A DNA stretch of 32,330 bases, taken from positions 1 to 32,330 of IMG/VR virus record IMGVR_UViG_3300025327_000112, one strand, 5' to 3'. The notes under the pieces were generated by a model. The model worked only from the letters and a program-made list of their open reading frames with translations. It was not told where the DNA came from and made no database searches. Made by a program: the position numbers and the translations under genes. This stretch comes from a virus. Numbering within the stretch: position 1 is the stretch's first letter; each line of letters opens with the position of its first letter. Of the stretch, positions 1,818-18,918 are shown piece after piece.

Positions 1818-2262
1818 CGACGCCACCAGGCCGCCCGAGGTCGCGCCGCCCATGGACGGCAAGGAGAAGCGCAAGCTCAACTTGCTGCCGCCGTGCCAGC
1901 CCGGCGAGACGCGCAACCGCGAGGGCAAGAACGGGCGCGACAAGCAGAAGGTCATCATCGACTTCATGGAGGCGCTTGACCCGAATGACCCAGAGCAGCG
2001 CCCGCGCATCATCTGCATGCTGGAGGCGATGTATCTGCGCGGGAGGCTGGGCCACGGCGTGTTTGGGAAGTTCCTCGGAGAGCAGTATTTCGGCAAGGCA
2101 CGCCAGACCGTGGACGTCTCCAACCCGGACGGTTCACTTCAGACGCTGCGGGGCGACGCGATCCTGTCAGCCCTCCAGGCCGCCATAGCGGCGCGAAAGG
2201 CCGACGACGAAGATCGAGCCTCCACAACGGAGCCGACCAGTGACGGCCATTCCGTCGAGTGA
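1810..2262 (+). CDS. putative small terminase subunit
   Basis: The 150-aa product lies directly upstream of the large terminase and overlaps it by 23 bases. That position and its make-up fit a small terminase, which recognises phage DNA and regulates packaging. An N-terminal segment with QPGETRNREGKNGRDKQK resembles the basic, glycine/asparagine-rich stretch of DUF5681-type phage proteins. A helical middle (residues about 45-90) and a charged C-terminus follow. The ATG at 1810 overlaps the preceding stop by 8 bases. No clear helix-turn-helix could be assigned by eye, so the call rests mainly on synteny and this N-terminal motif. Confidence 0.65.
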   Translation: MADDATRPPEVAPPMDGKEKRKLNLLPPCQPGETRNREGKNGRDKQKVIIDFMEALDPNDPEQRPRIICMLEAMYLRGRLGHGVFGKFLGEQYFGKARQTVDVSNPDGSLQTLRGDAILSALQAAIAARKADDEDRASTTEPTSDGHSVE

Positions 2263-3601
2263 GTCGCGCTCCCCATTCCAGGTGGCGGTCGAGGCCATCG
2301 GCGGCCCCGAGGCGTTCCTCTCGTTTTGGGAACAGCAGGATCAGGAGCAGCGCGAGGCCCTGGCGCACAATTGGGAGTTCGTGGCGAGGCCGAAGCAGCT
2401 CGCGCCGCCCGGCAAGTGGAGCACCTGGAACGTGCGGGCCGGCCGCGGCTGGGGCAAGACCAAAACCGGGTCCGAGTGGGTGCGGGCCAAGGTCGAGCGC
2501 GACGGCTGCCGCCGTATCGCCCTTGTGGCCCCCACGGCGGCAGCCGCTCGCGACGTCATGGTTGAGGGCCCGTCCGGCCTGCTGGCCGTTTGCCCACCCT
2601 GGAACCGCCCGATGTACGAGCCGAGCAAGCGGCGCGTGACGTGGCCCAATGGCGCACAGGTCACGCTGTTCTCTGCCGAGGAGCCGGACCGCCTACGTGG
2701 CCCCCAACATGAGGCTGCGTGGTGCGACGAAATCGCCGCCTGGGCGTCTCCCGAGGATTGCTGGGACATGCTGCAGTTCGGCCTGCGGGCGGGCGGAAAT
2801 CCACAGGCGCTCTGTACCTCGACCCCTCGCGCCCTGAAGTTCCTCCGCGAGCTCGAAGCGGACCCCACCACGGTGACGGTGCACGGCACCACCTACGAGA
2901 ATGAGGCAAACCTGGCGCCGCCGTTCCTCGCGCGCATCCGAAAGAAGTACGAGGGCTCGCGGCTCGGTCGCCAGGAGATCGCAGCCGAGATCCTGGATGA
3001 TAACCCTGGCGCCCTGTGGAAGCGTAGCCTCATCGACGCCAAGCGGATGGGGCTCGGTGAGTTCCTGCAATCTAAGCTACAGATGATACAGAGTGCGGTG
3101 GCGCTCGACCCAGCCACGACCGCGACAGCCAACAGTGACGAGGCCGGGATCGTGGCAGTGGGGAGCGGGATGTGCCCGTGCAACGGGAAGCCCGAACTGC
3201 ACGGGTTCGTGTTCGAGGACGCCACCAACATCTACTCGCCCAACGAGACCTGCGAGAAGGTGCTCGAAATCTTCCGCCGCCGCTTCGCCAACTGGGTGAT
3301 CGGCGAGACCAACCAGGGCGGCGACTGGATCGAGGCGCTGTTTCGCATGCACCCGGGCGCCAAGGCGCTGCCCTACAAGGGCGTGCACGCCAAGGATGGC
3401 AAGCGGCTACGTGCGGAGCCCGTGGTGGCGCTGTACGAGCAGGGCCGCGTCCACCACGTCGGGATGTTCGCCAAGCTCGAAGACCAGATGTGCAGCTGGG
3501 ACCCGAAGGAATCCGTCGATTCCCCCGACGACATCGACGCCCTCGTGCACGGGCTCACGGCCCTAATGATCTCCGGCGGAAGCATCTTCAACGCCCTTTG
3601 A
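2240..3601 (+). CDS. terL: terminase large subunit (packaging ATPase/nuclease)
   Basis: This 453-aa protein powers DNA packaging into the prohead and cuts the concatemer. The ATPase half shows Walker A RAGRGWGKT (residues 66-74), Walker B with the catalytic acid HEAAWCDEIAAW (D163, E164) and the coupling motif TSTPR (193-197). The nuclease half shows the expected acidic residues: VALDPA (D290), IGETNQGG (E355) and SPDDIDALVHGL (D431/D433), as in the RNase H-like domain of the Terminase_6/gp17 group. GTG at 2240 lies inside the small-subunit gene. The length is normal and no damage is seen. The portal gene follows after 10 bases. Confidence 0.95.
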   Translation: MTAIPSSESRSPFQVAVEAIGGPEAFLSFWEQQDQEQREALAHNWEFVARPKQLAPPGKWSTWNVRAGRGWGKTKTGSEWVRAKVERDGCRRIALVAPTAAAARDVMVEGPSGLLAVCPPWNRPMYEPSKRRVTWPNGAQVTLFSAEEPDRLRGPQHEAAWCDEIAAWASPEDCWDMLQFGLRAGGNPQALCTSTPRALKFLRELEADPTTVTVHGTTYENEANLAPPFLARIRKKYEGSRLGRQEIAAEILDDNPGALWKRSLIDAKRMGLGEFLQSKLQMIQSAVALDPATTATANSDEAGIVAVGSGMCPCNGKPELHGFVFEDATNIYSPNETCEKVLEIFRRRFANWVIGETNQGGDWIEALFRMHPGAKALPYKGVHAKDGKRLRAEPVVALYEQGRVHHVGMFAKLEDQMCSWDPKESVDSPDDIDALVHGLTALMISGGSIFNAL

Positions 3602-3611
3602 AAGGCTCACC

Positions 3612-5348
3612 ATGTCCAACTTTATCTCCCGCATGTTCCCCAAGCGCCCCGTGGCCGCCGACGCCATCACGCAGGCCGAATCGGCTGCCGCCGCCCAGCG
3701 GCGCACCGCCTTCGACGGGCTAGCCAACTACATCAGCGGCATGGGGACCCTGGCCGATCCGGCCCAGCACGATCGATACCTGTCCGAGACCAACATGGAC
3801 CGCGTTACGGCGGACGCCATCTTCCGCTCAAGCTGGCTCGGTAGGCGCGTCGTCACCACCATCGCCGACGACATGGTCCGCGGGTGGCGAACGGTCATGT
3901 GGGACGGCAGCCAGGACGATGACGGAATCTTCGACATCGCCCGCGAGGAAGAGCGGTTGCAAGTGCCGAAGCGCGTGCACTCTGCCATCAAGTGGGCGCG
4001 GCACTACGGCGGAGCGATCGTGGTCATGCTCATCAAGGGCCAGACCAGCCGGGAGGCCATGGCAGAGCCGCTCGACGTCGAGCAGGTCAAGCAGGGCGAC
4101 TTGCAGAACCTTGTGGTCTTCGATCGCTGGCGCGTCTACGGCACGCCTCCCAACGTGCGCGACTACTCCAACACCGCGCCGCTGGTTCCGCACCTGAACC
4201 AGACCATGGATGACCCTAACTTCGGGCTGCCCGAGATGTACTACCTGGCCGACACCGGCAGCCCGATCCACCACACACGCTGCATTCGGTTCGATGGCGA
4301 GGAGCTGCCCTGGTACGAGTGGGCGCGGAACGCCATGTGGCACGACAGCGTCTACAAGTCGCTCTACCGCGCGCTCAAGAGCTACGACTCGCTGATGCTC
4401 GGGTGCAGTCAGATCGTGCGGAAGGCGAGTGTCGAGGTGTTCTCGGCGGCCGGTCTCGCGGACCTGCTGTCCAGCAACGAGGGCACCACGAAGGCGCAGA
4501 CGCGCTACCAGCTCCTCTCACAAATGATGTCCATGTATGGCGTGGTGGCGCTCGACAAAGACCAGGAGACTTTCGACCGCAAGCCCGCCACCTTCGCCGG
4601 CCTGCGGGACCTGGCCGACCGCTTCGCGGTTGACGTGGCCGGCGCCGCCGACGTGCCGATGACCCGCCTGTTCGGCCAGAGCCCGGGCGGCCTGAACGCC
4701 ACCGGCGAGAGCGACCTGCAGAATTACGACAACCACATCGCGGCCCGCCAGCGGTCGAACTTGTCGCCGCAGATGAACGCGCTCGACCAAGTGCTGGTCA
4801 GGTCGGCGCTCGGGCGCATGCCGGAGGACTACCGCTTCGAGTGGAAGCCGCTGCGCCAGATGAGCCAGAAGGACAAGGCGGAGATCGACAAGCTGAACGC
4901 CGACCGGGACGCGGTCTACATCGACCGCGAGGTGGTGATGCCGCCGGTGATAGCCCGCGAGCTGCGAGCCGCTGGCACCTACCCGAACCTGACCCAAGAG
5001 GATGTGGACGACGTGGCCGAGGTCGGGGAGACCATCACGCCGATCACAAGCGAGAAGGATGACGAGGGGAAGCGGCTGGAGCGCACCGGGGGCGCGGCGT
5101 CGCCGGCCTCTCTGGTGGAAGGGCCGACTACCCTCACGCTCACCCCGACGATGCAGGGGGCGATCGTCACCGTGAACCAGGCGCTGGCCCAACTCCAGTT
5201 GCCGCCATGGCCAGACACCGATGGCGACCTGACGATCGCCGAGTTCCAGGCAAAGCACTCGGGCGACATCGCAGCGGCTGCTAACGCTGAGGCTGGGAAG
5301 ACTGGCCGTGCCACCTCACAGGAGCCACCGCTGCGAAAAACAGCTTGA
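3612..5348 (+). CDS. portal protein (DUF1073-type)
   Basis: This 578-aa protein forms the dodecameric ring at the capsid vertex through which DNA passes. The N-terminal half carries the family-like stretch FRSSWLGRRVVTTIADDMVRGW, and the block around residues 356-375 (GQSPGGLNATGESDLQNYDN) is a signature of the DUF1073 (PF06381) portal family. The last 100 residues are variable and acidic with alanine-rich helices. ATG at 3612 follows GAAAGG at suitable spacing. It lies immediately after the large terminase, as expected. Its stop codon (5346-5348) is embedded in the -35-like TTGACA of the following promoter. Confidence 0.92.
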   Translation: MSNFISRMFPKRPVAADAITQAESAAAAQRRTAFDGLANYISGMGTLADPAQHDRYLSETNMDRVTADAIFRSSWLGRRVVTTIADDMVRGWRTVMWDGSQDDDGIFDIAREEERLQVPKRVHSAIKWARHYGGAIVVMLIKGQTSREAMAEPLDVEQVKQGDLQNLVVFDRWRVYGTPPNVRDYSNTAPLVPHLNQTMDDPNFGLPEMYYLADTGSPIHHTRCIRFDGEELPWYEWARNAMWHDSVYKSLYRALKSYDSLMLGCSQIVRKASVEVFSAAGLADLLSSNEGTTKAQTRYQLLSQMMSMYGVVALDKDQETFDRKPATFAGLRDLADRFAVDVAGAADVPMTRLFGQSPGGLNATGESDLQNYDNHIAARQRSNLSPQMNALDQVLVRSALGRMPEDYRFEWKPLRQMSQKDKAEIDKLNADRDAVYIDREVVMPPVIARELRAAGTYPNLTQEDVDDVAEVGETITPITSEKDDEGKRLERTGGAASPASLVEGPTTLTLTPTMQGAIVTVNQALAQLQLPPWPDTDGDLTIAEFQAKHSGDIAAAANAEAGKTGRATSQEPPLRKTA

Positions 5349-5379: not shown

Positions 5380-5496
5380 ATGCCAGTCACCCTGCATCCG
5401 TCGAGCGAGACCGCGCGCACGCCCTCTGGTGACTGGCTGTTTCTAGGGTCAGCTTGTGCGCGGTCTCGTTGGGTGGATGGGATGGTGAGCAGATGA
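5380..5496 (+). CDS. possible leaderless 38-aa ORF heading the accessory operon
   Basis: ATG 5380 follows the promoter-like element by 7 nt with no Shine-Dalgarno sequence, consistent with leaderless translation. It runs 38 codons and ends in TGA at 5494-5496, overlapping the ATG at 5493 of the next gene (ATGA). The peptide (starting MPVTLHPSSETARTPSGDW) is unrecognised and Ser/Arg-rich. It may be a translated leader that couples ribosomes to the next gene. The alternative is that this is simply a 5' untranslated region. Confidence 0.3.
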   Translation: MPVTLHPSSETARTPSGDWLFLGSACARSRWVDGMVSR

Positions 5497-6188
5497 GCAC
5501 GCTGGAGAAGCACCCGGGGCCGTGGAAGTTCGAAGGCGGGATTTTCGACGCGAACGGAAATAGTCTAGTCAGCGGCGGTACCTACGATCTCGCCAATTGC
5601 GATGCCGAAGTCGAGGAGGACGTCAAGCCGCTCATTCTGGCCACCCCCATCCTCCTGGAGGCACTGGCCGTCGCCGTGTCCGAGAATGCCCCGCGCGACA
5701 TCATGCCGTTCAACCTGCTCATCGGGTGGCTGAACGGTGAGCCGGGATACCTAGAGGTCAACCTCGAAGCGTTCCTGAAGTGGCTGCGGGAGGAGCGAAC
5801 CACGATCGTCATCACGCGCGAAGGTGAGGCAAGGCGGCCCGAGGCGGCGATCGAGCACGTGCGTGAGACCACGTTTGGCGTCTCGCCCAACCCAGTGGAT
5901 GCGCTGCGGAACCTACTCAAGAGCGATCCTGAGTCGCTAGAGGCCCTCGGCCAGCGCCTTGGCGCAACCTCTCCGGTGAAGCTCGACGAAGCATCCTTCG
6001 ACGAAGCGGCGCGCGAACTGGAACGTCCGGCCCTACGCTGCCACGTCTGCGGCGCTCCCACCGAGAAGACATACACCTTCGAGCGCACGTACGAGAACAA
6101 GGCGTACGAGGCGCGGACCTTGCGCCTTGCTGGCGTCGGGCTTTGCGACGGCTGCGTGCCGCGGACGCATGACGGGGAAGGAATTTGA
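5493..6188 (+). CDS. phage protein of unknown function with C-terminal zinc-ribbon-like cysteines
   Basis: The 231-aa product starts at ATG 5493; an in-frame GTG at 5454 is possible but lies inside the 38-aa ORF. The N-terminus (GPWKFEGGIFDANGN, then ILATPILLEALA) recalls a widespread phage motif of the form ANA-x-IAAAPELLEAL, whose role is unknown. The C-terminus has two CxxC pairs, CHVCG and CDGC, about 35 residues apart, consistent with a treble-clef or zinc-ribbon knuckle. Between them is a Thr/Tyr/Glu-rich beta-like stretch. It is the first substantial gene of the accessory operon and its stop overlaps the next ATG (TGATG). Confidence 0.7.
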   Translation: MSTLEKHPGPWKFEGGIFDANGNSLVSGGTYDLANCDAEVEEDVKPLILATPILLEALAVAVSENAPRDIMPFNLLIGWLNGEPGYLEVNLEAFLKWLREERTTIVITREGEARRPEAAIEHVRETTFGVSPNPVDALRNLLKSDPESLEALGQRLGATSPVKLDEASFDEAARELERPALRCHVCGAPTEKTYTFERTYENKAYEARTLRLAGVGLCDGCVPRTHDGEGI

Positions 6189-6667
6189 TGGGCGACCACC
6201 TGAACAACGTCAACGCCCTCATCGCCAAGACGCTCCCGCGCTTCCCGCCCGATGGGCGCGCGGGCCACGTCCAGCTTGACTACCGGGTGGCGCAGAAGCG
6301 GCACGTCTACCTTGTGGCCCCCGGCGTGCCCATGAACGAGGAGGGGATCGCGGCGCACGCCAAGCTGTGCCTGGAACGGGAGTGGCCGCCGCAAGAAATC
6401 CTACCGCTGGGCACGCCACTGTCGCCAGAGAAATGCGACGTGGTGGTCATCGCTGCCGCAGTCTGGGTGGACACGACCATGACGGGGGCGCGCCACGTGG
6501 TCAACCAGCAGACCAAGCAGATGAGCCTCCAGCCCCGCATGGGCGCTCACGCCATCCCGGGCGAGATCGCACGGCTCGACTTGGTGGAGTTCCTGGCGCA
6601 CGCAGAGGCGTCGCTTGGCGAGGAGTCGCGCATCGTGCGGCCTGGGCTACAGATGGTGAGGGACTGA
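6188..6667 (+). CDS. unknown 159-aa protein
   Basis: The start is ATG 6188, overlapping the preceding stop as TGATG, which indicates coupled translation. The protein is soluble in appearance, with a mixed alpha/beta pattern and a hydrophobic strand CDVVVIAAAVWVDT near the middle followed by GARHVVNQQTKQMSLQPR. No family was recognised, and no signal peptide or membrane segment is seen. The context is the lead-in to the glycan-modification genes. Confidence 0.6.
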   Translation: MGDHLNNVNALIAKTLPRFPPDGRAGHVQLDYRVAQKRHVYLVAPGVPMNEEGIAAHAKLCLEREWPPQEILPLGTPLSPEKCDVVVIAAAVWVDTTMTGARHVVNQQTKQMSLQPRMGAHAIPGEIARLDLVEFLAHAEASLGEESRIVRPGLQMVRD

Positions 6668-6695: not shown

Positions 6696-7091
6696 ATGAG
6701 CAAGAACACGCGCCAGCAATGGCAAGACCGAAACAAGACGCCGGACCAGTCCGTAGGCGGCCCGATCGCATCGTCTCCGGCCGGCGAACCTGACCCGGTG
6801 GAGACCATCGAGCCGCTCGCCAGGGATGGGGCCATCGCTGCCAACCCGTGCGCGCTCGGGACCTCGAAGCCCGACGCCAACGGCATCACCCGCGGGCAGG
6901 TCTACGAGAACGTCGAGGTCCCAGACCGCCCGATCAACAAGCTTGGGCTACGTCCAGGGGCGCGCCTGAATCCACTTGAGATCGAAACGCCATACGGTGA
7001 CGGCCGCTGGATGGCGTGCTTCGTTGGTGAGCGCGCGACCAAGATCGAGGTGGACGCCCAGATGCTCAAGACGGGGAAGCTGCGGGCATGA
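6696..7091 (+). CDS. unknown 131-aa protein
   Basis: ATG 6696 is preceded by ACGAGGAGCGAC, a good ribosome-binding site. The N-terminal half is hydrophilic and probably disordered (Gln, Asn, Pro, Ser-rich). The C-terminal half looks folded (GLRPGARLNPLEIETPYG, GRWMACFVGERATKIEVDA). No family was recognised. The stop overlaps the glycosyltransferase start by 4 bases (ATGA), so it belongs to the same transcript. A small partner or regulator of the transferase cannot be excluded. Confidence 0.6.
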   Translation: MSKNTRQQWQDRNKTPDQSVGGPIASSPAGEPDPVETIEPLARDGAIAANPCALGTSKPDANGITRGQVYENVEVPDRPINKLGLRPGARLNPLEIETPYGDGRWMACFVGERATKIEVDAQMLKTGKLRA

Positions 7092-8623
7092 AGCTGTATT
7101 CTTGCTACACCCCCACGCACACCAAGATGTTCGAGCGCCACTTCATGGTGTCGCTGCCCAAGGAGTTCCGCGGGCGGAACCTCGTGGTGCGCAAGCTCCG
7201 GCAGAAGAGCAAGGACGGCGAATTCGCGTCTGCCGGCTTCTTCGAGACCTGTGTCCAGAAGGTCGAGTTCATCCTGGAGGCGTGCCAGTCGGAGAAGCGG
7301 CCGTTCGTGTTCTCCGACGTCGACGTTCGCTTCTACGCCAGATTTGGGAAAGACCTGGAGGAACTGCTTGGCGCGCACGACATGGCCTGCCAGTGGGACG
7401 GTGCCCGCGGGCGCTTCTGCACCGGCTTCATGGCCCTGCGGCCATCGGCGAAGCTTACCGTCTTCTGGCAAGCTGTCCTTGAGCGCATGAGGAAACGTCG
7501 GCTACTCGACCAGGACGCGGCCAACGAAGTCATCGCCAAAGGGGCCGAGCCAAGGATCGATGTGACAGCTCTGCCGGCGCGCTACTGGACATTCGGGCGG
7601 AACGACCACCACTGGGTTCCGGGCATCCCGGTCGACCCGCCGGCCGACCTGGCGATGCACCACGCGAATTGGACCAAGGGCATCGCCAATAAGCTGCTCC
7701 TGCTCGCCGAGGTACAGCAGACGGTCGAGGCCCGCAAGGCGGAGGACCCTGGGAAGCTGCCCCACATGATCGAGCGGAACCCCATGGGGGCAACGGCGGC
7801 CATGGCCAGGATACTCGACCTCAACCGCTCCCAGATGCGAGCCAAGCACCACCCGATGCCCATGGCGCTCGTGCTCCAATTCTGGCGCAAGGACAAACAC
7901 CGCGCGTGGGAGTTGGCGCGGCTGTTGGCCGACATCGAGCCAGAATTCCGCGATGACGTTGGGTTCTTCTTCGCGCGGCAGACGAACGTCACGCCCGCCT
8001 CGCAGGACCCAGAATTCTGGGACACCATGGTCTACGTCGGAAAGAAGTTCCCCGTGACCGAAATCGAGACATTCGTAGACGAGTCCAAGCCGTACCCTGG
8101 CGTGTGCTTCGACCCGTGGGCATCGGCCGCCCAGAAAGTCTCGGACCTGTACTTCACGGGCAAAATGCCATATGGGCGCGTGTTTTTCTTCGAGGCGGAC
8201 GGCTGCCCCATCGGAAGCGACTGGATCGACCGGCTCAAGAAGGCCCACGCGGAGACGCTGCTCGCGGGCAAGCGCGTAACCGGGCCGCTGATGCGGTTTG
8301 GTGGCGTCGACCGGCTCCACTCGCCTGGCGGGCACGTCAACGGAACGCTCATCATGGAGTGCTCATTCTGGGAGGATCACCCGAGCCTACGCCGGTGCAC
8401 GCCGACCGACGCATGGGATGTGCTGCACGGGCCGACGTTTCGAAGCGAGCTCGGGACCGCGCAGCCCAACATCATCCGCAACGAGCACGGCGGGTTGGGC
8501 CTCTCGGAGTCGCTGTACTGGGTCCTTGGCAAGGAGAGTTGCTGGATCACGTCTTGCAAAGACCACCTTCCCCATCACTGGTGCAGGAGGCATCTAGAAC
8601 ACGTGGCTGGGCGCAATGGTTGA
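7088..8623 (+). CDS. two-domain glycosyltransferase
   Basis: This 511-aa protein appears to join two GT-A-like domains. Residues 1 to about 215 resemble the Nucleotid_trans family (PF03407): a metal- and sugar-nucleotide-binding DVD in FVFSDVDVRFY (77-79), then GRFCTGFMALRPS, the DQDAAN motif (141-146) and the late HHANWTKG (191-198). From about residue 258 a second domain begins (MALVLQFWRKDKHRAWELARLL), with a possible DxD-equivalent FFFEADGCPI (367-374) followed by WIDRL, and later NGTLIMECSFWEDHP and SLYWVLGK. Such enzymes transfer sugars from nucleotide-sugars to glycans or proteins; donor and acceptor are unknown. ATG overlaps the previous stop (ATGA) and the end overlaps the next gene by 8 bases. 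It is the first enzyme of the cassette. Confidence 0.75.
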   Translation: MKLYSCYTPTHTKMFERHFMVSLPKEFRGRNLVVRKLRQKSKDGEFASAGFFETCVQKVEFILEACQSEKRPFVFSDVDVRFYARFGKDLEELLGAHDMACQWDGARGRFCTGFMALRPSAKLTVFWQAVLERMRKRRLLDQDAANEVIAKGAEPRIDVTALPARYWTFGRNDHHWVPGIPVDPPADLAMHHANWTKGIANKLLLLAEVQQTVEARKAEDPGKLPHMIERNPMGATAAMARILDLNRSQMRAKHHPMPMALVLQFWRKDKHRAWELARLLADIEPEFRDDVGFFFARQTNVTPASQDPEFWDTMVYVGKKFPVTEIETFVDESKPYPGVCFDPWASAAQKVSDLYFTGKMPYGRVFFFEADGCPIGSDWIDRLKKAHAETLLAGKRVTGPLMRFGGVDRLHSPGGHVNGTLIMECSFWEDHPSLRRCTPTDAWDVLHGPTFRSELGTAQPNIIRNEHGGLGLSESLYWVLGKESCWITSCKDHLPHHWCRRHLEHVAGRNG

Positions 8624-9263
8624 GGTCGGCCAGACGTTTGGACGGCTCACGGTCATAGGCACGGCGCCGACCGCGAAGCAGTACAGGCACTACAGGTGTC
8701 GATGCGTATGCGGGAACGAGTTGACCGTGCGGGGGACTCACCTCTCCTACGGAAACACCAAGTCGTGCGGGTGTGCCAGGCGAGAAGCGCTGGCAAAAAA
8801 CGTAGCATCCGTAACCCACGGAGCCACCAGGGATGGAAAGCGCACGCCTACCTTTTCAAGCTGGGTCTCGATCTGGCAGAGAGTTCGCGCGACAAGTGGG
8901 CACCATTTCAAGTACTACGGCGGGCGCGGCATCACCGTCTGTGATCGCTGGCAGAAGTTCGAAAACTTCCTTGCCGACATGGGGCCAAGGCCTTCGCCGA
9001 AACATTCCATTGACCGCGAGAATAACGACGGAAACTACGAGCCTGGCAACTGTAGATGGGCTACGCGGAGTCAGCAGACGCGCAACCAACGTCCAAGGAA
9101 GAACAAGTGCGGGTTCCATGGGGTCGGCTGGAATGGGCGCTGCTACCAGGCTTCCATCTCGGTAGATGGAAGACGCGAGCATCTTGGCAATTTCCCATCT
9201 GCCGAAGATGCTGGCAATGCGTACCAGGAGAAACGAAGACAACTGGAAGCGGAGGCGGGCTAG
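8616..9263 (+). CDS. HNH homing endonuclease with AP2 DNA-binding domain
   Basis: This 215-aa protein has three parts. The N-terminal zinc-binding segment contains FGRLTVIG, CRCVCG and SCGC. A central His-Me finger nuclease contains YYGGRGITVCDRW, SIDRENNDGNYEPGNCRWAT and SQQTRNQR. The C-terminal AP2-type DNA-binding domain contains GFHGVGWNGRCYQASISVDG, HLGNF and AEDAGNAY. This is the typical layout of free-standing phage homing endonucleases. It overlaps the glycosyltransferase by 8 bases and precedes the FkbM start by 1 base, so it is embedded in the operon without breaking it. Its DNA looks less GC-rich than its neighbours, fitting recent arrival. It may have helped mobilise the surrounding cassette (inference). 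Confidence 0.88.
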   Translation: MVEVGQTFGRLTVIGTAPTAKQYRHYRCRCVCGNELTVRGTHLSYGNTKSCGCARREALAKNVASVTHGATRDGKRTPTFSSWVSIWQRVRATSGHHFKYYGGRGITVCDRWQKFENFLADMGPRPSPKHSIDRENNDGNYEPGNCRWATRSQQTRNQRPRKNKCGFHGVGWNGRCYQASISVDGRREHLGNFPSAEDAGNAYQEKRRQLEAEAG

Positions 9264-9264
9264 G

Positions 9265-9921
9265 ATGGAGAAAGCCGACACCATGGACGCCATGCTGGCC
9301 CGGCTGGCGAAGCGGTGCACGCTGGCCACCATCATCGACGTGGGGGCTAGCACGGGTTGCTGGTCCGAGGTGGCGGCGCGCCACTGGCCCGCGGCGAACC
9401 TCATTCTCATCGAGGCCGACGAGCGGCACTTCGATGCGCTGGCCGATTTCCAGGCCCGGCACGTCTGCCACATCGCCCACATGATGGCGGGCGACCACTG
9501 CGGCACCGGCTACTTCGCCGCGAGCCCGACCGACCCGTTCGGAGGCCAGGGCAGCACGGTGGCGAGGCCCGACACGGTGGAGAAGCGCTGCACGACGGTG
9601 GACCTACAGGTCATGGGCACGGGCTTTCCCGGGCCGTACCTGCTCAAGCTCGACACCCACGGGTACGAGCGGCAGATTATGGCCGGCGCTCAGTGGGTCC
9701 TGGCCAGGGCAGCGGCGCTTGTGATCGAGGCGTACACCTGCACATTGCAGCCCGGGGCGTGGCGCTTCTGGGAGCTGTGCCAGTACCTGGTGGGCTACGG
9801 CTTCGTCCCCACCGACGTGGTGGACGTCATGCGCCGGCCGCTCGATGACCGCTGGTGGCAGGCTGACATGGCCTTTGAGCGAGCGAGCGCGCCCCACGTG
9901 GGCGAGGGGAGGTATCGTTGA
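9265..9921 (+). CDS. FkbM-family methyltransferase
   Basis: The start is placed at ATG 9265, after GGAGGCGGG; an earlier in-frame ATG at 9166 lies within the endonuclease gene and is unlikely. The 218-aa product has the class I SAM-binding motif IIDVGASTGCWSE, the ribose-binding acidic strand LILIEADERHFDAL and the family hallmark LLKLDTHGYERQIMAGA. FkbM-type enzymes usually O-methylate sugars or polyketides. Its stop overlaps the next ATG (TGATG). In context it probably methylates the sugar laid down by the upstream glycosyltransferase. The C-terminal LDDRWWQADMAFER segment resembles family members ending in an aromatic motif. Confidence 0.88.
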   Translation: MEKADTMDAMLARLAKRCTLATIIDVGASTGCWSEVAARHWPAANLILIEADERHFDALADFQARHVCHIAHMMAGDHCGTGYFAASPTDPFGGQGSTVARPDTVEKRCTTVDLQVMGTGFPGPYLLKLDTHGYERQIMAGAQWVLARAAALVIEAYTCTLQPGAWRFWELCQYLVGYGFVPTDVVDVMRRPLDDRWWQADMAFERASAPHVGEGRYR

Positions 9922-10571
9922 TGCTCGTGACGCCCATCGAGCGACGCCCCCACCTCATCGCCCGCCTCATCGGCACCCAAGAGGTCGAGGCGTGGGCCAT
10001 CATCCGCGCCCTGGAGGCCACCCGCGCGCTACCGGGCGACGTCTGCGAATTCGGCGTTGCCCAGGGAGCGACCTCGGCCCTCATGGCCAACGAGATGATC
10101 GAGACCACCGAACGCCTGCACCTATTTGACAGCTTTGCGGGGCTGCCGGCACCGACCGAGAAGGACGAACTCCTACACGACATCTTCGGCCTCAACACCA
10201 TGGCGGCCTACGCCGGCACGATGGCGTGCGGGCCAGACATGGTGCTGGCGCGTCTCGCGACCGTTGGTTTTCCACCGGATCGCACCGTTCTCCACGCCGG
10301 GTTTCTGCGCGAGACCCTGGCGGGGGCCAACCTACCAGCGGCCGTGAGGTTCGCCTACGTGGACGTCGACCTGTACGAGTCGACTCGCCAGGCGCTGGAC
10401 TTCCTGACCGGCGTCATGGTGCCCGGCGGGGTGGCGCTGGTCGACGACTACGGATTCTTCACCTCTGGCGCCCAGACGGCGGTCGAGGAGGTGGCGGCGC
10501 GCGGTGGCTGGGAGGTGCGGCCGAGCGAGCCGGCGGCGCTGCACTTTTGCACGATGACCCGTAGGCCGTGA
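9921..10571 (+). CDS. TylF/MycF-family O-methyltransferase
   Basis: ATG 9921 overlaps the FkbM stop and is preceded by GGGGAGG. The 216-aa protein carries TylF-type motifs in order: VCEFGVAQGATSALMANEM (SAM binding), HLFDSFAGLPAPTEKDE, the metal-binding-type acidic motif FAYVDVDLYESTRQALDFL and VPGGVALVDDYGFF. TylF and MycF methylate sugar hydroxyls of macrolides using SAM and a divalent metal, and homologues occur in cell-surface glycan clusters. It is likely the second sugar-methylating enzyme of the cassette. Its last 4 bases overlap the GTG of the next gene. Confidence 0.9.
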   Translation: MLVTPIERRPHLIARLIGTQEVEAWAIIRALEATRALPGDVCEFGVAQGATSALMANEMIETTERLHLFDSFAGLPAPTEKDELLHDIFGLNTMAAYAGTMACGPDMVLARLATVGFPPDRTVLHAGFLRETLAGANLPAAVRFAYVDVDLYESTRQALDFLTGVMVPGGVALVDDYGFFTSGAQTAVEEVAARGGWEVRPSEPAALHFCTMTRRP

Positions 10572-11347
10572 TCGTGACCGAGCCCGTCCACATCTTCCTC
10601 CACATCCCCAAGACGGCCGGGGTCACGATCCACGAGATCGCGGCTCGCCAGTACCCGCAGGACACCGCCTACGTTGTGGGGGCTGACCACGGAATCTTCC
10701 ATGCGTTCACGCAGGAGCAGCGGGACGGCTTGTGTTACGTGGGCGGCCACTTCTCCCACGGGTTTCACCGGCACTTCACCCGCCCATGCCGGTACGTCAC
10801 CATGCTGCGCGACCCGGCCGACCTGCTGGTGTCGTGCTACCACTACATCATACGGTGTCCCAACAACCCGGACCACGGCCCCATGGTCGACGGCGGCGTG
10901 ACGTTCCCCATGTGGCTCGCGCAAGAATGGCTCGGCCACATCGACAACCATCAGTTGCGCTGCTTGCTCGGCAAGTGGCCACCCGAGCCGGTCACGTGGG
11001 CCGACATCGAGCTGGGCAAGCGGCTCCTGGCCGAGGAGTTCGCGGCCTTCGGGCTGGTCGAGCGGTTTGACGAGTCGATGCTGTTCTTTCAGGACGCATT
11101 CGGGTGGGGCGTGCCGACCTATACCAAGCGGAACGTGTATCGCTGCGATCGTGATGGCGACGTCCTGACGCCGGAGGCGCGCGAGATCATCGCCGACCGC
11201 CACGCCATGAGCTGCGAGCTGGTGGCGTTCGCACGTCGACTGTTTGACCAGCGGGCGAGGGCCGCAGGGAATGAGTTTACGGAGAGGCTGCGGCGCCTAC
11301 AGGAAGCGAACCAAGAGCAGGGCACCCCAGCCCGCGGGGCCGTGTGA
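10568..11347 (+). CDS. sulfotransferase (Sulfotransfer_2-like)
   Basis: The start is GTG 10568 (overlap GTGA). The 259-aa product contains the 5'-phosphosulfate loop HIPKTAGVT (residues 12-20, Lys15 the expected PAPS contact), a GHFSHGF segment typical of the family, and the 3'-phosphate-binding motif RDPADLLVSCYHY (Arg81, Ser89). These enzymes transfer sulfate from PAPS to hydroxyl groups of carbohydrates. No signal peptide or membrane helix is present, so it would act in the cytoplasm on a soluble or lipid-linked acceptor. The C-terminal 40 residues are charged. It is translationally coupled to a second sulfotransferase-like gene. Confidence 0.88.
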   Translation: MIVTEPVHIFLHIPKTAGVTIHEIAARQYPQDTAYVVGADHGIFHAFTQEQRDGLCYVGGHFSHGFHRHFTRPCRYVTMLRDPADLLVSCYHYIIRCPNNPDHGPMVDGGVTFPMWLAQEWLGHIDNHQLRCLLGKWPPEPVTWADIELGKRLLAEEFAAFGLVERFDESMLFFQDAFGWGVPTYTKRNVYRCDRDGDVLTPEAREIIADRHAMSCELVAFARRLFDQRARAAGNEFTERLRRLQEANQEQGTPARGAV

Positions 11348-12084
11348 CCGCCACCGTCCGCATCGTCCACAACCTGGCCCGCTCGGGCGGGACCATCTTC
11401 GCCCGCTGCCTCGGCTGCATGGACGGTGTGGCGCTCCTGAGTGAGATCCACCCGTTGACGGTCGGCATCTTCGGCGCGACCCAGCAGGCCGCCGAGTGGC
11501 ATGGTCTACAGGTGCCGCCAGGTCAGAGCTTTGTGGCCAACGTGGGGGCCCTGGCCGAAGCCGCGGCGGGCGCCGGCAAGTCCCTCGTGCTGCGCGGCTG
11601 GGACCACGTCGACCTCATGCCGTGCCCCCACAACGGGTGGGTGCCGAGCATGCATTCCGAGCTTGCCGACACGCTGGCAGGGCGCTTCGAGGTTCGCCGA
11701 CTGGCGCTGGTACGCGAGCCGCTGGCCATGTGGGCGAGCTTACAGCGGCACTGGCAGGTGGCCACGCAGCCGCAGTACGGCGACGTCTCGCTGGCGGACT
11801 TCCTGCGCGGCTATCGAGCCTTTGCCGAGATGGCCAGCGGGATGCCTCTCGTACGATACGAGGACTTCTGCGCAGACCCGGGCGGGACGCTGGCCGAGGC
11901 GTGTGACCTGCTCGATCTGCCATTCGACCCGGGCTGGCCCGGCAAGTGGCGGCACTACCGCAAGGTCACGGGCGACATCGCGAACCAGAGCGCACGGGGC
12001 GACATTGCCATGCCGGCGCCGGTGCGCGACCCCGAGATCGAAGCGCTGGCCGCTGGGAATGCGGACTACCGCTTCTCGCGATAG
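11344..12084 (+). CDS. second sulfotransferase-family protein
   Basis: GTG 11344 overlaps the previous stop by 4 bases. The 246-aa protein shows a P-loop-like 5'-phosphosulfate motif ARSGGTIFARCL (residues 12-23), a 3'-phosphate motif LVREPLAMWASL (Arg124, Ser132) and a late RYEDFCADPGGTLAEACDLL followed by LPFDPGW, all typical of sulfotransferase-fold proteins. It shares little obvious sequence with the preceding sulfotransferase, so the pair is not a recent duplication. A late NQSARGD may contact the nucleotide. Its 3' end overlaps, tail to tail, a minus-strand 22-aa ORF by 19 bases. It is the last gene of the accessory operon. Catalytic activity is likely but not proven by motifs. Confidence 0.8.
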   Translation: MTATVRIVHNLARSGGTIFARCLGCMDGVALLSEIHPLTVGIFGATQQAAEWHGLQVPPGQSFVANVGALAEAAAGAGKSLVLRGWDHVDLMPCPHNGWVPSMHSELADTLAGRFEVRRLALVREPLAMWASLQRHWQVATQPQYGDVSLADFLRGYRAFAEMASGMPLVRYEDFCADPGGTLAEACDLLDLPFDPGWPGKWRHYRKVTGDIANQSARGDIAMPAPVRDPEIEALAAGNADYRFSR

Positions 12085-12346: not shown

Positions 12347-12394
12347 CAGGCGGCCCTTCTGCTTCTGTCGTTTGCCGCATGCCTCATGTTTTTC

Positions 12395-12422
12395 GTTGTA
12401 CGTATCTGCGCACCACTGTCAA
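12395..12422 (-). promoter_or_regulatory. candidate minus-strand promoter TTGACA-N16-TACAAC
   Basis: Read on the minus strand, TTGACA (12422-12417) is followed after 16 bp by TACAAC (12400-12395), in a locally AT-rich stretch. The predicted start site is near 12388, giving about 40 nt of leader before the HTH gene. Its geometry matches the 5345 promoter. Confidence 0.55.
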
Positions 12423-12450
12423 GAACTTCTTTCGTTGGCCCGCCGCTTTT

Positions 12451-12462
12451 CGTACCACGCGA
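12451..12462 (+). promoter_or_regulatory. third copy of the CGTACCACGCGA element
   Basis: An exact 12-bp match to the elements at 1409 and 5365 lies 10 nt upstream of the GTG at 12472. No good TTGACA-like -35 is seen at 16-17 bp (TTCGTT at 12431 is weak), so here it may act mainly as an operator or need an activator. Confidence 0.4.
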
Positions 12463-12471
12463 ATCAGACCC

Positions 12472-13443
12472 GTGGGCCTACGAATTGCCAATCTGGTCAG
12501 GGCAGCGCGGGGCAACCGCCCGCCTGGGAAGAGGCGCGCCCGGTTCAAGACGCTGCGGCCAGTCCGTCCCAGCAAGCGCACCGAGATCTGGTACCGCGGA
12601 CAGCTCCTTGGGCTCGTCGTGCACATTCGACGGCTGATCGCCGAACGCTTCCAGGGACTCCGCGACGAATGGCCGGCCCGCACCGGTGACGCCATGGTGG
12701 CCGGCGATCGCGAGCCGGACGTCGGGACGTTCGCATCCCCCAACTTCGACGGTGCGCCACGCATCGAGATGGTGATCGAGGGTGTCAAGCGCGACATGCC
12801 AGGGCTGCTGGAGTTCGCGGCCAAGACCGCCACCAGCGCCGCCACCAAGAACCTGGCCAAGATCGACGACGACCTAGCGTACCTGATCGAGCAGCAGCTT
12901 GGGGTCGACGTGGGCCCGATCTTGGAAGGCTACGGCCCGCTGTCGCAACAGATGCGCAAGGCGGTGCAGGAAAACATCGAGCTGATCCGCTCCATCCCGA
13001 CGGAGTACCTCGACCGCGTGAAGGAGACGCTCTCGACGGCGTGGCAAGAGGGCGTCGGGTTCGAGCAAACGGGCAAGATGATCGAGCGCGACTTCGCCGT
13101 CACCGAGAGCAGGGCCGCCCTCATCGCGAGTGACCAGACCAAGAAAATGGCCGGGCAGTTCAATCGTGAACGGCAGCAGCAAGTCGGGATCGACAAGTAT
13201 AAGTGGCGCGCTACCCACAGGAACACGCGGCCCGAGCACCTGGCGATGGAGACCGGCGGTGAGGGCGGACAGGGTGTCTACCGTTGGAGCGAGCCAGGCC
13301 CGCTCAAGGGAACGATCGACGGGGAGCCGTGCCACCCGGGCGAGGACATCGCGTGCAACTGCATGGCAGCCCCCTACGTTGACCTTTCCGACGCGAACGA
13401 GGACTTCTGGACCATCATGCAGGCCGCACAGGAGGCCGCTTGA
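12472..13443 (+). CDS. head morphogenesis protein (Mu F / SPP1 gp7-like)
   Basis: The product belongs to the minor head protein group that joins the portal during capsid assembly. The helical middle (RPVRPSKRTEIWYRGQLLGL onward) is followed by the C-terminal domain signature: YKWRATHRNTRPEHLAM, then PCHPGEDIACNCMAAPYV, as in PF04233 with its Cys and His residues. GTG 12472 (323 aa) is preferred because the frame's earlier ATG (12379) would put the candidate minus-strand promoter and the 12-mer element inside the coding region and would add an atypical Arg/Phe-rich N-terminus. The ATG at 12379 remains possible (354 aa). The gene overlaps the next one by 4 bases (TTGA). Confidence 0.82.
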   Translation: MGLRIANLVRAARGNRPPGKRRARFKTLRPVRPSKRTEIWYRGQLLGLVVHIRRLIAERFQGLRDEWPARTGDAMVAGDREPDVGTFASPNFDGAPRIEMVIEGVKRDMPGLLEFAAKTATSAATKNLAKIDDDLAYLIEQQLGVDVGPILEGYGPLSQQMRKAVQENIELIRSIPTEYLDRVKETLSTAWQEGVGFEQTGKMIERDFAVTESRAALIASDQTKKMAGQFNRERQQQVGIDKYKWRATHRNTRPEHLAMETGGEGGQGVYRWSEPGPLKGTIDGEPCHPGEDIACNCMAAPYVDLSDANEDFWTIMQAAQEAA

Positions 13444-14735
13444 GCGCCTTGCGCGAGTGCCGGGCTTTCGACTTGTTCATGCTTGGCACCCAACGGGTCA
13501 AGGACGCCGACGGGTTTCTGCACGTCCCGGGCTGCATCGCCAAGGCGGGCAACATCCAGGAGTACCGGGCCGGCGAGCTTGAATTGGACGGCGATCCCAA
13601 CCGAGTCGTGCGCCTCTACCGCCCGCGCGACGAGGTTGCCAAGTCGACCGCAACCTTCGCCCGCAAGCCGATCACCAATGAACATCCTCCTGGCCGATGG
13701 ATCACGCCGGACAACTGGGAGCGGTACGCGGTTGGCGACGCCGGAAGCTCTGTCGACATGCAGGGCGACGACATGATGACGGAGTTGATCTTCAGGAAGA
13801 AGTCGGCAATCGCCGACCTGGAGGCCGGCAAGGTCGCGCTTTCCAACGGCTACAAGTTCCACTTCGACGACAGCAAGAAGACCACGCCGGAAGGCGAGGC
13901 GGTTGATGGCTGGATGACCAACATCCAGGGCAACCACATTGCGCTCGTCGACCGGGGGCGCGGCGGACCCGGTTGTGTCGTCGCCGACAAGGAGACCCAC
14001 ATGATGAGAACAGTGAAGATCGGAAAGCTCTCGTTCGAGGTCGACGCGACCGCCGCAGACGCCGTCGAACTGGAACAGGAAAAGAGTGCAAAGGACGTCG
14101 CGGCAGCAATGAAGCTTGCCGAAGACGCCGAAAAGCGCGCCGTCGCATCCGATGCGCGCGCGAAGAAGCTCCTCGATGGCGAATGCCCAGATTGCAAAGG
14201 CGAGGGCGAAGTCGACGGCAAGAAGTGCAAGATGTGCGGCGGGACCGGCGAGATGCCGATGCCCAAAAAGGCAGGCGATCGGGCAGCCGCCGAGTTGAAG
14301 GCCGCAAAGGACGCGATCCCGACGGCCGCGCAGATCGAAGCGCTGGCGGCCGAACGCGCGTCTGTGGTGTGCGACGCCGCGGTGTTGGCCCCCGACCTGA
14401 AGCCAGAGGGCAAGACGGTCGACCAGATCCGGCGTGAGGCACTGACCGCGTGCGTGGCCAAGGACGCCGGCATCAAGGCAGTGGCCGACGCCGCCATGGC
14501 GGGCGCGCCGATCGACAAGGCGGCGCCCGAGGTGGTCAAGGCCACTTTCTCGGCGGCGGCCTCGATCGCCAAGAGCAACAAGACCGCGAACGACAAGGAC
14601 TCAATCGCGGCTGACCTTCTGAGCGCCGGCAGCGGCCAAGGAAGCGGCAAGGACAAGACGACTGCCGATGCGGACGGGCTCGTGGGGTACGCCCTGTTCT
14701 GCGATCGCATCAATCACCCCAAGGCCCAAGCGTAA
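13440..14735 (+). CDS. DUF2213 prohead protease fused to scaffold-like C-terminus
   Basis: TTG 13440 overlaps the preceding stop and follows GGAGG at good spacing. Residues 1 to about 185 match DUF2213, a family thought to be prohead protease: the likely catalytic His in TNEHPPGRW (His82), the Ser region VALSNGYKF (Ser135) and the conserved NHIALVDRGRGG. The rest is Ala/Lys/Glu-rich helix typical of scaffold (EQEKSAKDVAAAMKLAED). Unusually, CPDCKGEG (249-256) and CKMCGGTG (263-270) form a pair of DnaJ-type CxxCxGxG zinc motifs within the scaffold part. The 431-aa product would mature the capsid by cleaving itself and the scaffold. The order before cement and capsid genes supports this. Confidence 0.82.
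   Translation: MSALRECRAFDLFMLGTQRVKDADGFLHVPGCIAKAGNIQEYRAGELELDGDPNRVVRLYRPRDEVAKSTATFARKPITNEHPPGRWITPDNWERYAVGDAGSSVDMQGDDMMTELIFRKKSAIADLEAGKVALSNGYKFHFDDSKKTTPEGEAVDGWMTNIQGNHIALVDRGRGGPGCVVADKETHMMRTVKIGKLSFEVDATAADAVELEQEKSAKDVAAAMKLAEDAEKRAVASDARAKKLLDGECPDCKGEGEVDGKKCKMCGGTGEMPMPKKAGDRAAAELKAAKDAIPTAAQIEALAAERASVVCDAAVLAPDLKPEGKTVDQIRREALTACVAKDAGIKAVADAAMAGAPIDKAAPEVVKATFSAAASIAKSNKTANDKDSIAADLLSAGSGQGSGKDKTTADADGLVGYALFCDRINHPKAQA
14001..14735 (+). CDS. nested scaffold protein from an internal start
   Basis: Inside the protease gene and in frame, AAGGAG (13989-13994) stands 6 nt before tandem ATGs at 14001 and 14004, residues 188/189 of the long product. This is a far better ribosome-binding site than expected inside a gene, and it falls exactly at the end of the DUF2213 domain. 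Translation would give a 244-residue helical protein with the DnaJ-like cysteine motifs. Lambda C/Nu3 is the known precedent for a scaffold nested in a protease gene. The motif is seen; its use is inferred. Confidence 0.55.
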   Translation: MMRTVKIGKLSFEVDATAADAVELEQEKSAKDVAAAMKLAEDAEKRAVASDARAKKLLDGECPDCKGEGEVDGKKCKMCGGTGEMPMPKKAGDRAAAELKAAKDAIPTAAQIEALAAERASVVCDAAVLAPDLKPEGKTVDQIRREALTACVAKDAGIKAVADAAMAGAPIDKAAPEVVKATFSAAASIAKSNKTANDKDSIAADLLSAGSGQGSGKDKTTADADGLVGYALFCDRINHPKAQA

Positions 14736-15292: not shown

Positions 15293-16396
15293 ATGTCTCA
15301 GGGAAAGAAAGTTGTTACGGTCCTCGATTCGGCTTCCTGCCAGAAGAAGCAAGTCGCGGTCGACGAGAAGCGCTGGAACGAGATCAACACCGGGCTCCAG
15401 AAGATTTTCAAGCTCGACTGGAACCACGAGTACATCCTGGCCGCGGACTCGCAAGAGGGCATGGCCTTCCTGGTCTCCCAGCTCGCCTATACGGAGGCCG
15501 AGACCTACGCCAAGGAGTACACCGAGGCGCAGTACCGCCTTCTAATCCCCGTGACCTCGGAAGCAGGCCCGGATGCGTCCAGCGTGCGCTACCAGGTCTA
15601 CGACAAGGTCGGCCAGGGCAAGCGCATCAACGCCGCGGCCGACGACCTGCCCGGGGTGGACGTGGCGGGTGCCGTTGTCGAGATCGCGGTTTCGACCGGC
15701 GGCATCTCGTACCAGTACACCCAGGACGAGCTGGTCCAGGCTGCCCGCATGATCCGCCCGCTGCCGAGCGAGCGCATGGCGACGGCCATCGAGGCGTCTG
15801 AGCGACACCTAAACGAGGTCGCGCTGAACGGTGAGAACACCGGCGTGGCGGGCGAAGCTCGCTACTACGGACTCCTCAACCAAAGCGGGGTCACGACCCA
15901 CAATGACCTGACGGCCGGCTACACGGCCGCGTGGGGCACGACCGCGACGGCGGACCAGGTACTGGCCGACGTCAACAAGGGCATCCTGGCCTACTGGCAG
16001 GGGTCCAACTACACCGTGCTGCCCAATACGCTCGGCCTCGCGCCTGCGTGCTACTCGGCACTGGCGACGCGCTACAACTCGCTTGGGACCAAGACCCTGC
16101 TGCAACTCGTGCAGGAGGGCAACATGACGACCGCGCGCTCGGGCGAAAAGCTCAACGTCGTTCCGATCTTGCAGGCCGCTACGGCCGGCACCTCGGGCGC
16201 CGGGGCGCCAAGCAAGAGCCGCAATGTCTTCTACCGCAACGAAAAGCGTCGGATGGTCATGCACGTTCCGATGCCGGTCAGGTTCCTGGCCCCGCAGCCC
16301 TCCGGGCTCAAGGTCAAGATCCCAGGCTGGTACAAGTACGCGGGCCTGAACGTCCGCTACATCTACACAGTCCTGTACCAAGACAACATGGCGTAG
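15293..16396 (+). CDS. major capsid protein (DUF2184-type)
   Basis: The start is ATG 15293 after AAGGAAAGGCAGGGGC; the frame is open upstream through the cement gene but that part is a shadow. The 367-aa product has the DUF2184 capsid pattern: an IPVTSEAGPDASSVRYQVYD segment, a DDLPGVDVAGAVVEI strand, ISYQYTQDELVQAAR, the ALNGENTGVAGEARYYGLLN turn and late RNVFYRNEKRRMVMHVPMP. It adopts an HK97-like fold in the family and builds the head shell. It is a normal-length single polypeptide with no extra domain. Strong synteny supports the call. Confidence 0.9.
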   Translation: MSQGKKVVTVLDSASCQKKQVAVDEKRWNEINTGLQKIFKLDWNHEYILAADSQEGMAFLVSQLAYTEAETYAKEYTEAQYRLLIPVTSEAGPDASSVRYQVYDKVGQGKRINAAADDLPGVDVAGAVVEIAVSTGGISYQYTQDELVQAARMIRPLPSERMATAIEASERHLNEVALNGENTGVAGEARYYGLLNQSGVTTHNDLTAGYTAAWGTTATADQVLADVNKGILAYWQGSNYTVLPNTLGLAPACYSALATRYNSLGTKTLLQLVQEGNMTTARSGEKLNVVPILQAATAGTSGAGAPSKSRNVFYRNEKRRMVMHVPMPVRFLAPQPSGLKVKIPGWYKYAGLNVRYIYTVLYQDNMA

Positions 16397-18003: not shown

Positions 18004-18918
18004 ATGGCTGATGGTTCAAGGCACTCACTGCACTACATCGTCGAGTCCGTTTACGGGACATGCCCCGCGACTCCGGCGTTCACGCCCATCCGTCACCGCG
18101 GCATCAGCGGGGGGCTCTCGAAGGACACCTTTCAGAGCGAGACCCTGCGATCAGATCGCCAGATCGAAGACCTGCGGCACGGGGCCCGCAAGGTGATGTT
18201 CGACATCCCGATCGAGTGGAGCTACACGTCATTCGATGATCTGCTGGAGGCGACGCTCTGCGGGACATGGGCCGCCAACGTGCTCAAGGCCGGCACCACT
18301 CGCCGGTCATTCACGATCGAGAGCCACTTCGCCGACGTCGCCACCGGAGGTTACCATTTGTTCGAGGGATGCGTCTTCAATAAGGCGCAACTCCAAATCA
18401 ACGCCAACGCGATGGTGACGGGCTCCTTCGGCGTCGTCGGCCAGGACAACACCGTCGGCGACGCGGCAGTGGCTGGCGCCACCTACGCCGATCCGGCCAC
18501 CACCTCTCCATTCGATGCCTTCACGGGCACGATCGAGGAGGGCGGCTCCCCCATCGCGACCGTCACCGAGATCTCGCTTAATCTCGACAACGGTATCGAG
18601 CCGCGGTTCGTGGTCGGGTCCGACCTGACGCTGCTGCCCTCCATCGGGCGCTCGACCCTCACGGGCCAGGTCACGGCCTACTTCGAGAACAGCACGCTGC
18701 TCAACAAGTTCATCAACGAGACCGAAAGCTCCATCGAGGTCGAGCTCGAAGACGTGGCGGGCAATACGCTGACCATCCTGCTGCCGCGGACCAAGTACAC
18801 CGGCGGCCCGGTCAACGTCGGCGGGGTTGGCCCCCTGACGCTTGCACTCCCGTTCCAGGCACTTTACGAAGCCTACACCAACGACAGCAACATCGTCACC
18901 ACGCGCGCCGCCGCATAG
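18004..18918 (+). CDS. major tail (tube) protein
   Basis: ATG 18004 follows ACAAGGAGAACACC, a strong ribosome-binding site as expected for an abundant virion protein. The 304-aa sequence carries tail tube hallmarks: HYIVESVYGTCPATPAFTP near the N-terminus, DIPIEWSYTSFDDLLEATLC, then IEEGGSPIATVTEISLNLDN and a late LPFQALYEA. It stacks as rings to form the tube. It sits just upstream of the tail chaperone, which further supports the call. Confidence 0.9.
   Translation: MADGSRHSLHYIVESVYGTCPATPAFTPIRHRGISGGLSKDTFQSETLRSDRQIEDLRHGARKVMFDIPIEWSYTSFDDLLEATLCGTWAANVLKAGTTRRSFTIESHFADVATGGYHLFEGCVFNKAQLQINANAMVTGSFGVVGQDNTVGDAAVAGATYADPATTSPFDAFTGTIEEGGSPIATVTEISLNLDNGIEPRFVVGSDLTLLPSIGRSTLTGQVTAYFENSTLLNKFINETESSIEVELEDVAGNTLTILLPRTKYTGGPVNVGGVGPLTLALPFQALYEAYTNDSNIVTTRAAA

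Follow-up and report, generated by a model that had tools for sequence, protein, structure and literature searches.

A putative virion-glycosylation cassette with two sulfotransferase-family genes between the portal and Mu-F genes of a probable tailed phage

What is a run of sugar-modifying genes doing in the middle of a phage head cluster, between the gene for the portal and that for a Mu-F-like head morphogenesis protein? The question arises from virus record IMGVR_UViG_3300025327_000112, a fragment of 32,330 bases that was analysed over its whole length (the window) and that, judging by its late genes, most likely derives from a tailed phage. At 7088-12084 on the plus strand, all genes run in one direction and encode a two-domain glycosyltransferase (GT), methyltransferases of the FkbM and TylF families and two sulfotransferase-family proteins (ST1 and ST2), with an HNH endonuclease gene lodged among them. 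An earlier note on this DNA had named these enzyme classes, their coordinates and their order, all of which agree with the open reading frames (ORFs) and domain profiles. The reading favored here, with a probability of roughly 0.6, is that the five enzymes form a late-expressed virion-glycosylation cassette to which sulfation has been added. The genes and the two borders of the site, which lie 7.0 kb apart in the window, are as follows.

3612-5348, + strand: portal gene, upstream border of the insertion site (phrog_146, E = 1.6e-120)
7088-8623, + strand: two-domain glycosyltransferase (GT), 511 amino acids (PF03407; GT-A fold models of both domains)
8616-9263, + strand: HNH endonuclease, inserted at the GT/FkbM junction (phrog_374, 1e-67)
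9265-9921, + strand: FkbM-family methyltransferase (TIGR01444, 1.8e-13; PF05050, 2.2e-8)
9918-10571, + strand: TylF-family O-methyltransferase (PF05711, 1e-18)
10568-11347, + strand: sulfotransferase-family protein 1, ST1 (PF00685, 0.0039; phrog_3347, 0.0027; bacterial homologue L207)
11344-12084, + strand: sulfotransferase-family protein 2, ST2 (PF13469, 9.5e-5; the orthologue from the near relative, L002, passes the PF13469 cut-off)
12379-13443, + strand: Mu-F-like head morphogenesis gene, downstream border of the insertion site (PF04233, 1.9e-8; phrog_324, 6.5e-52)

That the five enzymes act together, as the earlier note supposed, is supported by the gene order kept in a near relative and by the recurrence of parts of the set at the same site in other phages. 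The near relative, IMGVR_UViG_3300033480_000013, is 83-90% identical in DNA over most of the shared region (77% for FkbM) and keeps the order GT-FkbM-TylF-ST1-ST2 without the HNH gene. Absence or scrambling of the genes in close relatives, or loss of the catalytic motifs, had been named beforehand as grounds for abandoning the idea; on inspection, the order is kept and the catalytic motifs are present. The ratios of nonsynonymous to synonymous substitution rates (dN/dS) against the near relative are 0.16 for GT, 0.35 for FkbM, 0.12 for TylF, 0.25 for ST1, and 0.14 for ST2, within or near the range of neighboring genes (0.07-0.25), indicating purifying selection on all five cassette genes. A third contig (3300012933) begins inside ST2 (88% identical) and continues into Mu-F, the protease and the major head protein.

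The HNH gene is a separate insertion, a passenger outside the pathway. It is missing from the closest relative (L002) and for that reason is not part of the operon's function, a correction to the earlier note; its GC fraction is 0.59, compared to 0.65 for the window. Four junctions are 4-base overlaps (preceding small gene/GT, FkbM/TylF, TylF/ST1 and ST1/ST2) and GT overlaps HNH by 8 bases, in keeping with the overlaps of 1 to 8 bases described earlier, except that HNH and FkbM do not overlap at all and are separated by a 1-base gap. The FkbM start at 9265 is the first ATG past the HNH stop, and an in-frame ATG is also found at 9166. In the near relative (L011, 18282-19320), three minus-strand ORFs without an aligned counterpart in the window lie between ST2 and Mu-F.

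The GT consists of an N-domain (residues 1-211) that matches PF03407 (E = 1.2e-10, over the curated cut-off) and carries the motif SDVDVRFY (D77 and D79), and a C-domain (residues about 255-511) with an ExD motif (E369 and D371). The N-domain motifs SDVD and HHANWT do not vary among relatives, nor do ExD, HxNG and WD of the C-domain. The model of the N-domain is confident over residues 1-210, and its best structure match is 2p6w (Z 15.2 over 187 residues, 12% identity), a PBCV-1 glycosyltransferase that acts on the major capsid protein. The full-length model was poor in the C-domain, so this domain was modelled separately from 11 viral sequences, giving a predicted local distance difference test (pLDDT) score of 89.3, a predicted TM-score (pTM) of 0.90, and GT-A matches with Z up to 14.8 over 214 residues, the ExD motif following a strand. 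As modelled, both domains have the GT-A fold, and each carries a DxD-like motif for metal and nucleotide. The C-domain received neither a Pfam nor a PHROG label, sequence searches of solved structures with the GT gave nothing useful, and no C-domain match was found on plasmids. A pattern-based search with the GT alignment, which distant relatives may escape, found none in genomes of about 85,000 bacterial and archaeal species. None of 289 genomes from the class to which a Thalassobaculum (L112) belongs matched the C-domain, an empty result that carries little weight without a positive control.

Both methyltransferases score over curated cut-offs and resemble sugar O-methyltransferases, not base methyltransferases. 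FkbM reaches 51.2 bits for TIGR01444 (cut-off 37.7) and 34.9 for PF05050 (cut-off 22.7), and TylF reaches 67.9 bits for PF05711 (cut-off 23), with D149, D151, D176 and D177 invariant across three homologues. Among solved O-methyltransferases TylF matches 5i10 (3.9e-10) and the mycinamicin III 3''-O-methyltransferase 4x7v (1.2e-5), and the solved relatives of TylF include macrolide-sugar and TDP-rhamnose O-methyltransferases.

The family assignment of ST1 and ST2 draws on motifs and on relatives, as both proteins fall below Pfam cut-offs. For ST1 the values are those listed above together with PF06990 (0.0033), and for ST2 the PF13469 (Sulfotransfer_3) score is 22-23 bits against a cut-off of 27. 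The orthologue of ST2 in the near relative (L002) passes that cut-off at 27.6, as do bacterial relatives of ST2 at 32.5 and 31.3 bits, and a bacterial relative of ST1 (L207; 28% identity, 7.7e-12) passes that of PF03567 (Sulfotransfer_2) at 28.8 against 22. Homologues of ST2 at 38-43% identity are encoded on bacterial chromosomes. ST1 has an IPKTAG-VTI loop and a later RDPADLLVS, and ST2 an ARSGGT loop and a later VREPLAMWAS, all conserved with relatives. Judged by these motifs, both proteins appear to carry the P-loop-like loop that binds 3'-phosphoadenosine 5'-phosphosulfate (PAPS) and the downstream R...S motif of the sulfotransferase superfamily, at the positions usual for these motifs in the family. 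Searching solved structures by sequence yielded nothing useful for ST1 and, for ST2, the CurM sulfotransferase only (E = 0.098). A PF03567 search across viral records returned no match and is uninformative, as its controls were also silent.

How unusual is the location of the cassette? Of 80 portal-sharing loci that were compared, 66 have portal and Mu-F on one strand, and the gap between the two is at most 1.4 kb in 64 of these and nearly always below 0.35 kb, although many of the 66 are closely related and 64 is not a count of independent lineages. The two gaps above 6 kb belong to the near relative and to L009, and each holds a GT cassette. The GT C-domain is absent from 21 portal-sharing records of 24.8-48.3 kb, and it marks cassettes at the portal/Mu-F junction of five or more other contigs, where its partners vary and include TylF, FkbM, other glycosyltransferases, an epimerase and a radical SAM protein. 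In L009, whose portal is 47% identical, the portal is followed by GT, a TylF (52% identical) and a protein with a DxD-like motif; in L093 and L094 a C-domain homologue stands directly after the portal with an epimerase and a protein similar to this last one of L009. L008 has the C-domain alone, after the same small genes as the window, and L090 has a homologue before Mu-F. In L095 it is inverted between Mu-F and portal and adjoins an FkbM (41% identical to that of the window), alongside one more putative glycosyltransferase and a radical SAM gene, and in L031 a homologue and an FkbM sit beside the terminase genes. In L096 and L097, two contigs unrelated by their head proteins, a C-domain homologue immediately precedes a putative major head gene and is accompanied by further putative sugar genes. 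These arrangements are evidence that the portal/Mu-F junction is a recurring insertion site common to divergent phages.

Several further features of these loci were recorded. The radical SAM gene of L095 (10194-11168) lies within the GT cassette between portal and Mu-F. In L031 (8704-12963) the portal lies between terminase and Mu-F on the opposite strand, either a real inversion or an assembly error. A GDP-mannose-type epimerase and a probable GIY-YIG endonuclease, recognized by eye, adjoin the C-domain GT of L097 (5788-7256), the latter being another endonuclease passenger. A phage of a portal lineage 60% identical to that of the window (L012, 11609-12814) has a cytosine methyltransferase-like gene directly after the portal, a different cargo at the same site. 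Finally, two contigs of more than 200 kb (L003, 6889-15797; L004, 6308-14406) each carry a tandem array of about ten genes for sugar transfer, including a homologue of the GT N-domain.

If the cassette does act on the virion, the GT would place two sugars, one per GT-A domain, from host nucleotide sugars onto a phage structural protein in the cytoplasm; FkbM and TylF would next O-methylate the sugars, and ST1 and ST2 would add sulfate from host PAPS. The product would be a short capped glycan of about two sugars, methylated, sulfated and negatively charged, displayed on the particle. Insertion of the block between the portal and Mu-F head genes would bring about its co-expression with head proteins, with HNH as a passenger. 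We infer the acceptor, the order of the reactions, the transfer of sulfate, and a benefit that could lie in shielding, stability or adsorption. Because no membrane segment was found in the cassette proteins (no 19-residue stretch exceeds a mean hydropathy of 1.41), they probably act in the cytosol, on proteins or soluble acceptors. Virion proteins are the most likely acceptors, since divergent phages keep the link with head genes and since the mycobacteriophage Corndog, discussed below, sets a precedent. The major head protein or the tail tube would be the likeliest acceptor, and a Thr-rich fiber a possible one.

15293-16396, + strand: major head protein, candidate acceptor (phrog_264, 1.6e-67)
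18004-18918, + strand: phrog_290 tail protein, probable tail tube, candidate acceptor (phrog_290, 3e-82)
27034-28995, + strand: Thr-rich (22% Thr) fiber-like protein, which might conceivably be an O-glycan acceptor

The Thr-rich protein has a signal-peptide-like N-terminus, starts 4 bases inside the tail-tip gene, and shares the motif GTxxKIDxGWLPT with a Thr-rich protein of L092, also a GT carrier. Its Thr level is unmatched in 20 control records save for one low-complexity frame. Fibers are often Ser/Thr-rich, and as an acceptor this protein is a lead only.

Several observations weigh against the virion reading. Synteny establishes linkage to head genes and not a substrate, and a late operon also tolerates cargo genes. 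In L092 the GT adjoins replication-type genes instead of head genes, and the head genes of L096 and L097 are so named from gene order, having no PHROG, Pfam or phage match. The complete five-gene set is known from two contigs; among phages ST1 is known from the same two, and ST2 from these and one fragment. Sulfotransferase-fold proteins need not be sulfotransferases, and the structure matches of the GT reflect shared folds at about 10% identity that do not fix donor or acceptor. Acceptor, sugar and sulfate are predictions.

The same genes could instead serve, during infection or lysogeny, to modify the lipopolysaccharide or capsule of the host or a lipid-linked sugar, altering the receptor and leading to superinfection exclusion or conversion. 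FkbM, TylF and sulfotransferases do act on bacterial polysaccharides and lipids, the bacterial chromosomal homologues of ST2 fit such a role, and glycosyltransferases of temperate phages are known to alter host serotype (PMC12619734). Nevertheless, this explanation is unlikely and leaves the site unaccounted for. The cassette has no membrane segments, flippase or bactoprenol transferase, and so differs from gtrABC-type seroconversion systems with their membrane flippase and membrane-bound glycosyltransferases; it lies among head genes and not near an attachment site, in a position kept in divergent phages; and the window contains no integrase, though the record is itself a fragment. Of the targets listed in the earlier note, virion protein is therefore retained, and host surface polysaccharide and lipid-linked sugar are less supported, given the lack of membrane segments and a site tied to head genes.

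A different concern is that the genes may be passive cargo (morons), acquired where a late position tolerates insertion and sharing no pathway, each enzyme acting separately or on small molecules. Partner genes do differ between phages, and the cytosine methyltransferase-like gene of L012 occupies the same site. Against this stand five genes whose order is kept, under purifying selection, at a DNA identity of about 85%, and the independent recurrence of FkbM and TylF beside the same C-domain family, and such a scenario is improbable. Still less probable is a role in DNA hypermodification, in which the GT, methyltransferases and sulfotransferases would decorate modified phage bases against restriction. 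A Mom-like DNA modification gene is indeed present at 2-1231, upstream of the terminase (phrog_1384, 4.3e-26; NF045478, 1.5e-41), and nucleotide sulfation and glycosylation have been reported or proposed for phages (PMC10829341). Yet the terminase and portal genes separate the Mom-like gene from the cassette, no hydroxymethylating or base-hydroxylating enzyme was identified among the genes scanned in the window (the record is a fragment), FkbM and TylF match sugar rather than base methyltransferases, and the linkage to head genes would be left unexplained.

The remaining genes of the window follow a late gene order: Mom-like, large terminase, portal, small genes, cassette, Mu-F-like head gene, protease, major head protein, connector, and tail genes.

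2240-3601: large terminase, a late gene
5454-6188, + strand: small gene between portal and cassette, of unknown function (ORF; homologue in the near relative)
6185-6667, + strand: small conserved gene upstream of the cassette, of unknown function (homologues in L011, L008 and at the end of L012; dN/dS 0.12)
6696-7091, + strand: small conserved gene upstream of the cassette, of unknown function (homologues in L011 and L008; 4-base overlap with GT)
13440-14735: protease (capsid protease) of the head cluster

The relatives of the terminase reach about 52% identity at best over full length (partial matches 59% and 76%), come from mixed hosts and are without a matching head module. GT, FkbM, ST1 and ST2 have no tblastn match in 50,697 phage records, and the matches of TylF among isolated phages are to mycobacteriophages and one Xanthomonas phage only.

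Should the cassette act on the particle, sulfation would join the chemistry of virion glycans, and a recurring genomic site of module exchange would be revealed. A broader proposal can be put forward tentatively: that a tailed phage covers its particle with a methylated and sulfated glycan made by a late cassette dedicated to this task, and that the portal/Mu-F junction is a swap site at which glycan modules, marked by an unnamed GT-A domain family, are exchanged. If true, this would be a particle-coat analogue of serotype switching. Further modules in environmental phages could be sought with the C-domain family, and in E. coli the genes would make a small test set for O-glycosylation, methylation and sulfation of proteins.

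Few phages are documented to glycosylate their virions, and an effect of such glycosylation on antibody recognition has been reported (PMC11600133). The closest parallel is Corndog, a cluster O mycobacteriophage in which the genes for an O-methyltransferase (gp35) and for glycosyltransferases (gp36-gp38) separate the portal from the capsid maturation protease (PMC4351075); a passage in PMC11600133, citing Freeman et al. 2023, reports that this type of block modifies capsid and tail tube. The window resembles it in having glycosyltransferase and O-methyltransferase genes, linked to the head genes, in the interval from portal to capsid protease. Compared by description, Corndog has three separate glycosyltransferases with no FkbM and no sulfotransferases, whereas in the window a single GT with two domains is joined by two methyltransferases and a pair of sulfotransferase-family proteins. 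In Llama, a cluster F mycobacteriophage, gp108 has a C-terminal TylF-like domain homologous to the TylF of the window (tblastn, 4e-9; profile hidden Markov model, 1.4e-9) and is followed by two glycosyltransferases (gp109 and gp110), which do not match the GT profiles of the window, and an HNH gene, the whole lying at the genome end and not in the head cluster.

More distant parallels come from eukaryotic viruses. In the chlorovirus PBCV-1, A064R and A061L finish the capsid N-glycan with two glycosyltransferase domains and methyltransferases, and the domains beyond domain 1 of the enzyme attach another sugar and a methyl group (PMC9614988). The structure of A064R domain 1 is the top structural match of the GT N-domain, at an identity (about 12%) for which no membership is claimed; the PBCV-1 enzyme is one fused protein, its second glycosyltransferase domain is described as a new family, and it has no sulfotransferase. 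Moumouvirus australiensis, a giant virus of amoebae with fibrils that is likened to the cassette by description, has a glycogene cluster in which enzymes of sulfate metabolism are predicted, with a proposed role in sulfating sugars (PMC9614988). No paper in open access was found that brings together phage, sulfotransferase and FkbM, and literature searches on sulfotransferases gave nothing on phage virion glycans. The earlier note knew of no description of the full set in a phage head-tail cluster. A glycosyltransferase/methyltransferase block of that kind is known from Corndog, and the part for which no description was found is the sulfotransferase pair. The cassette is of a known kind, a phage virion-glycosylation cassette in a head cluster. 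Within the reach of the searches, the window adds to it a pair of sulfotransferase-family genes, a GT-A domain family that bears no label and marks modules at the portal/Mu-F junction, and evidence that insertions recur at this junction.

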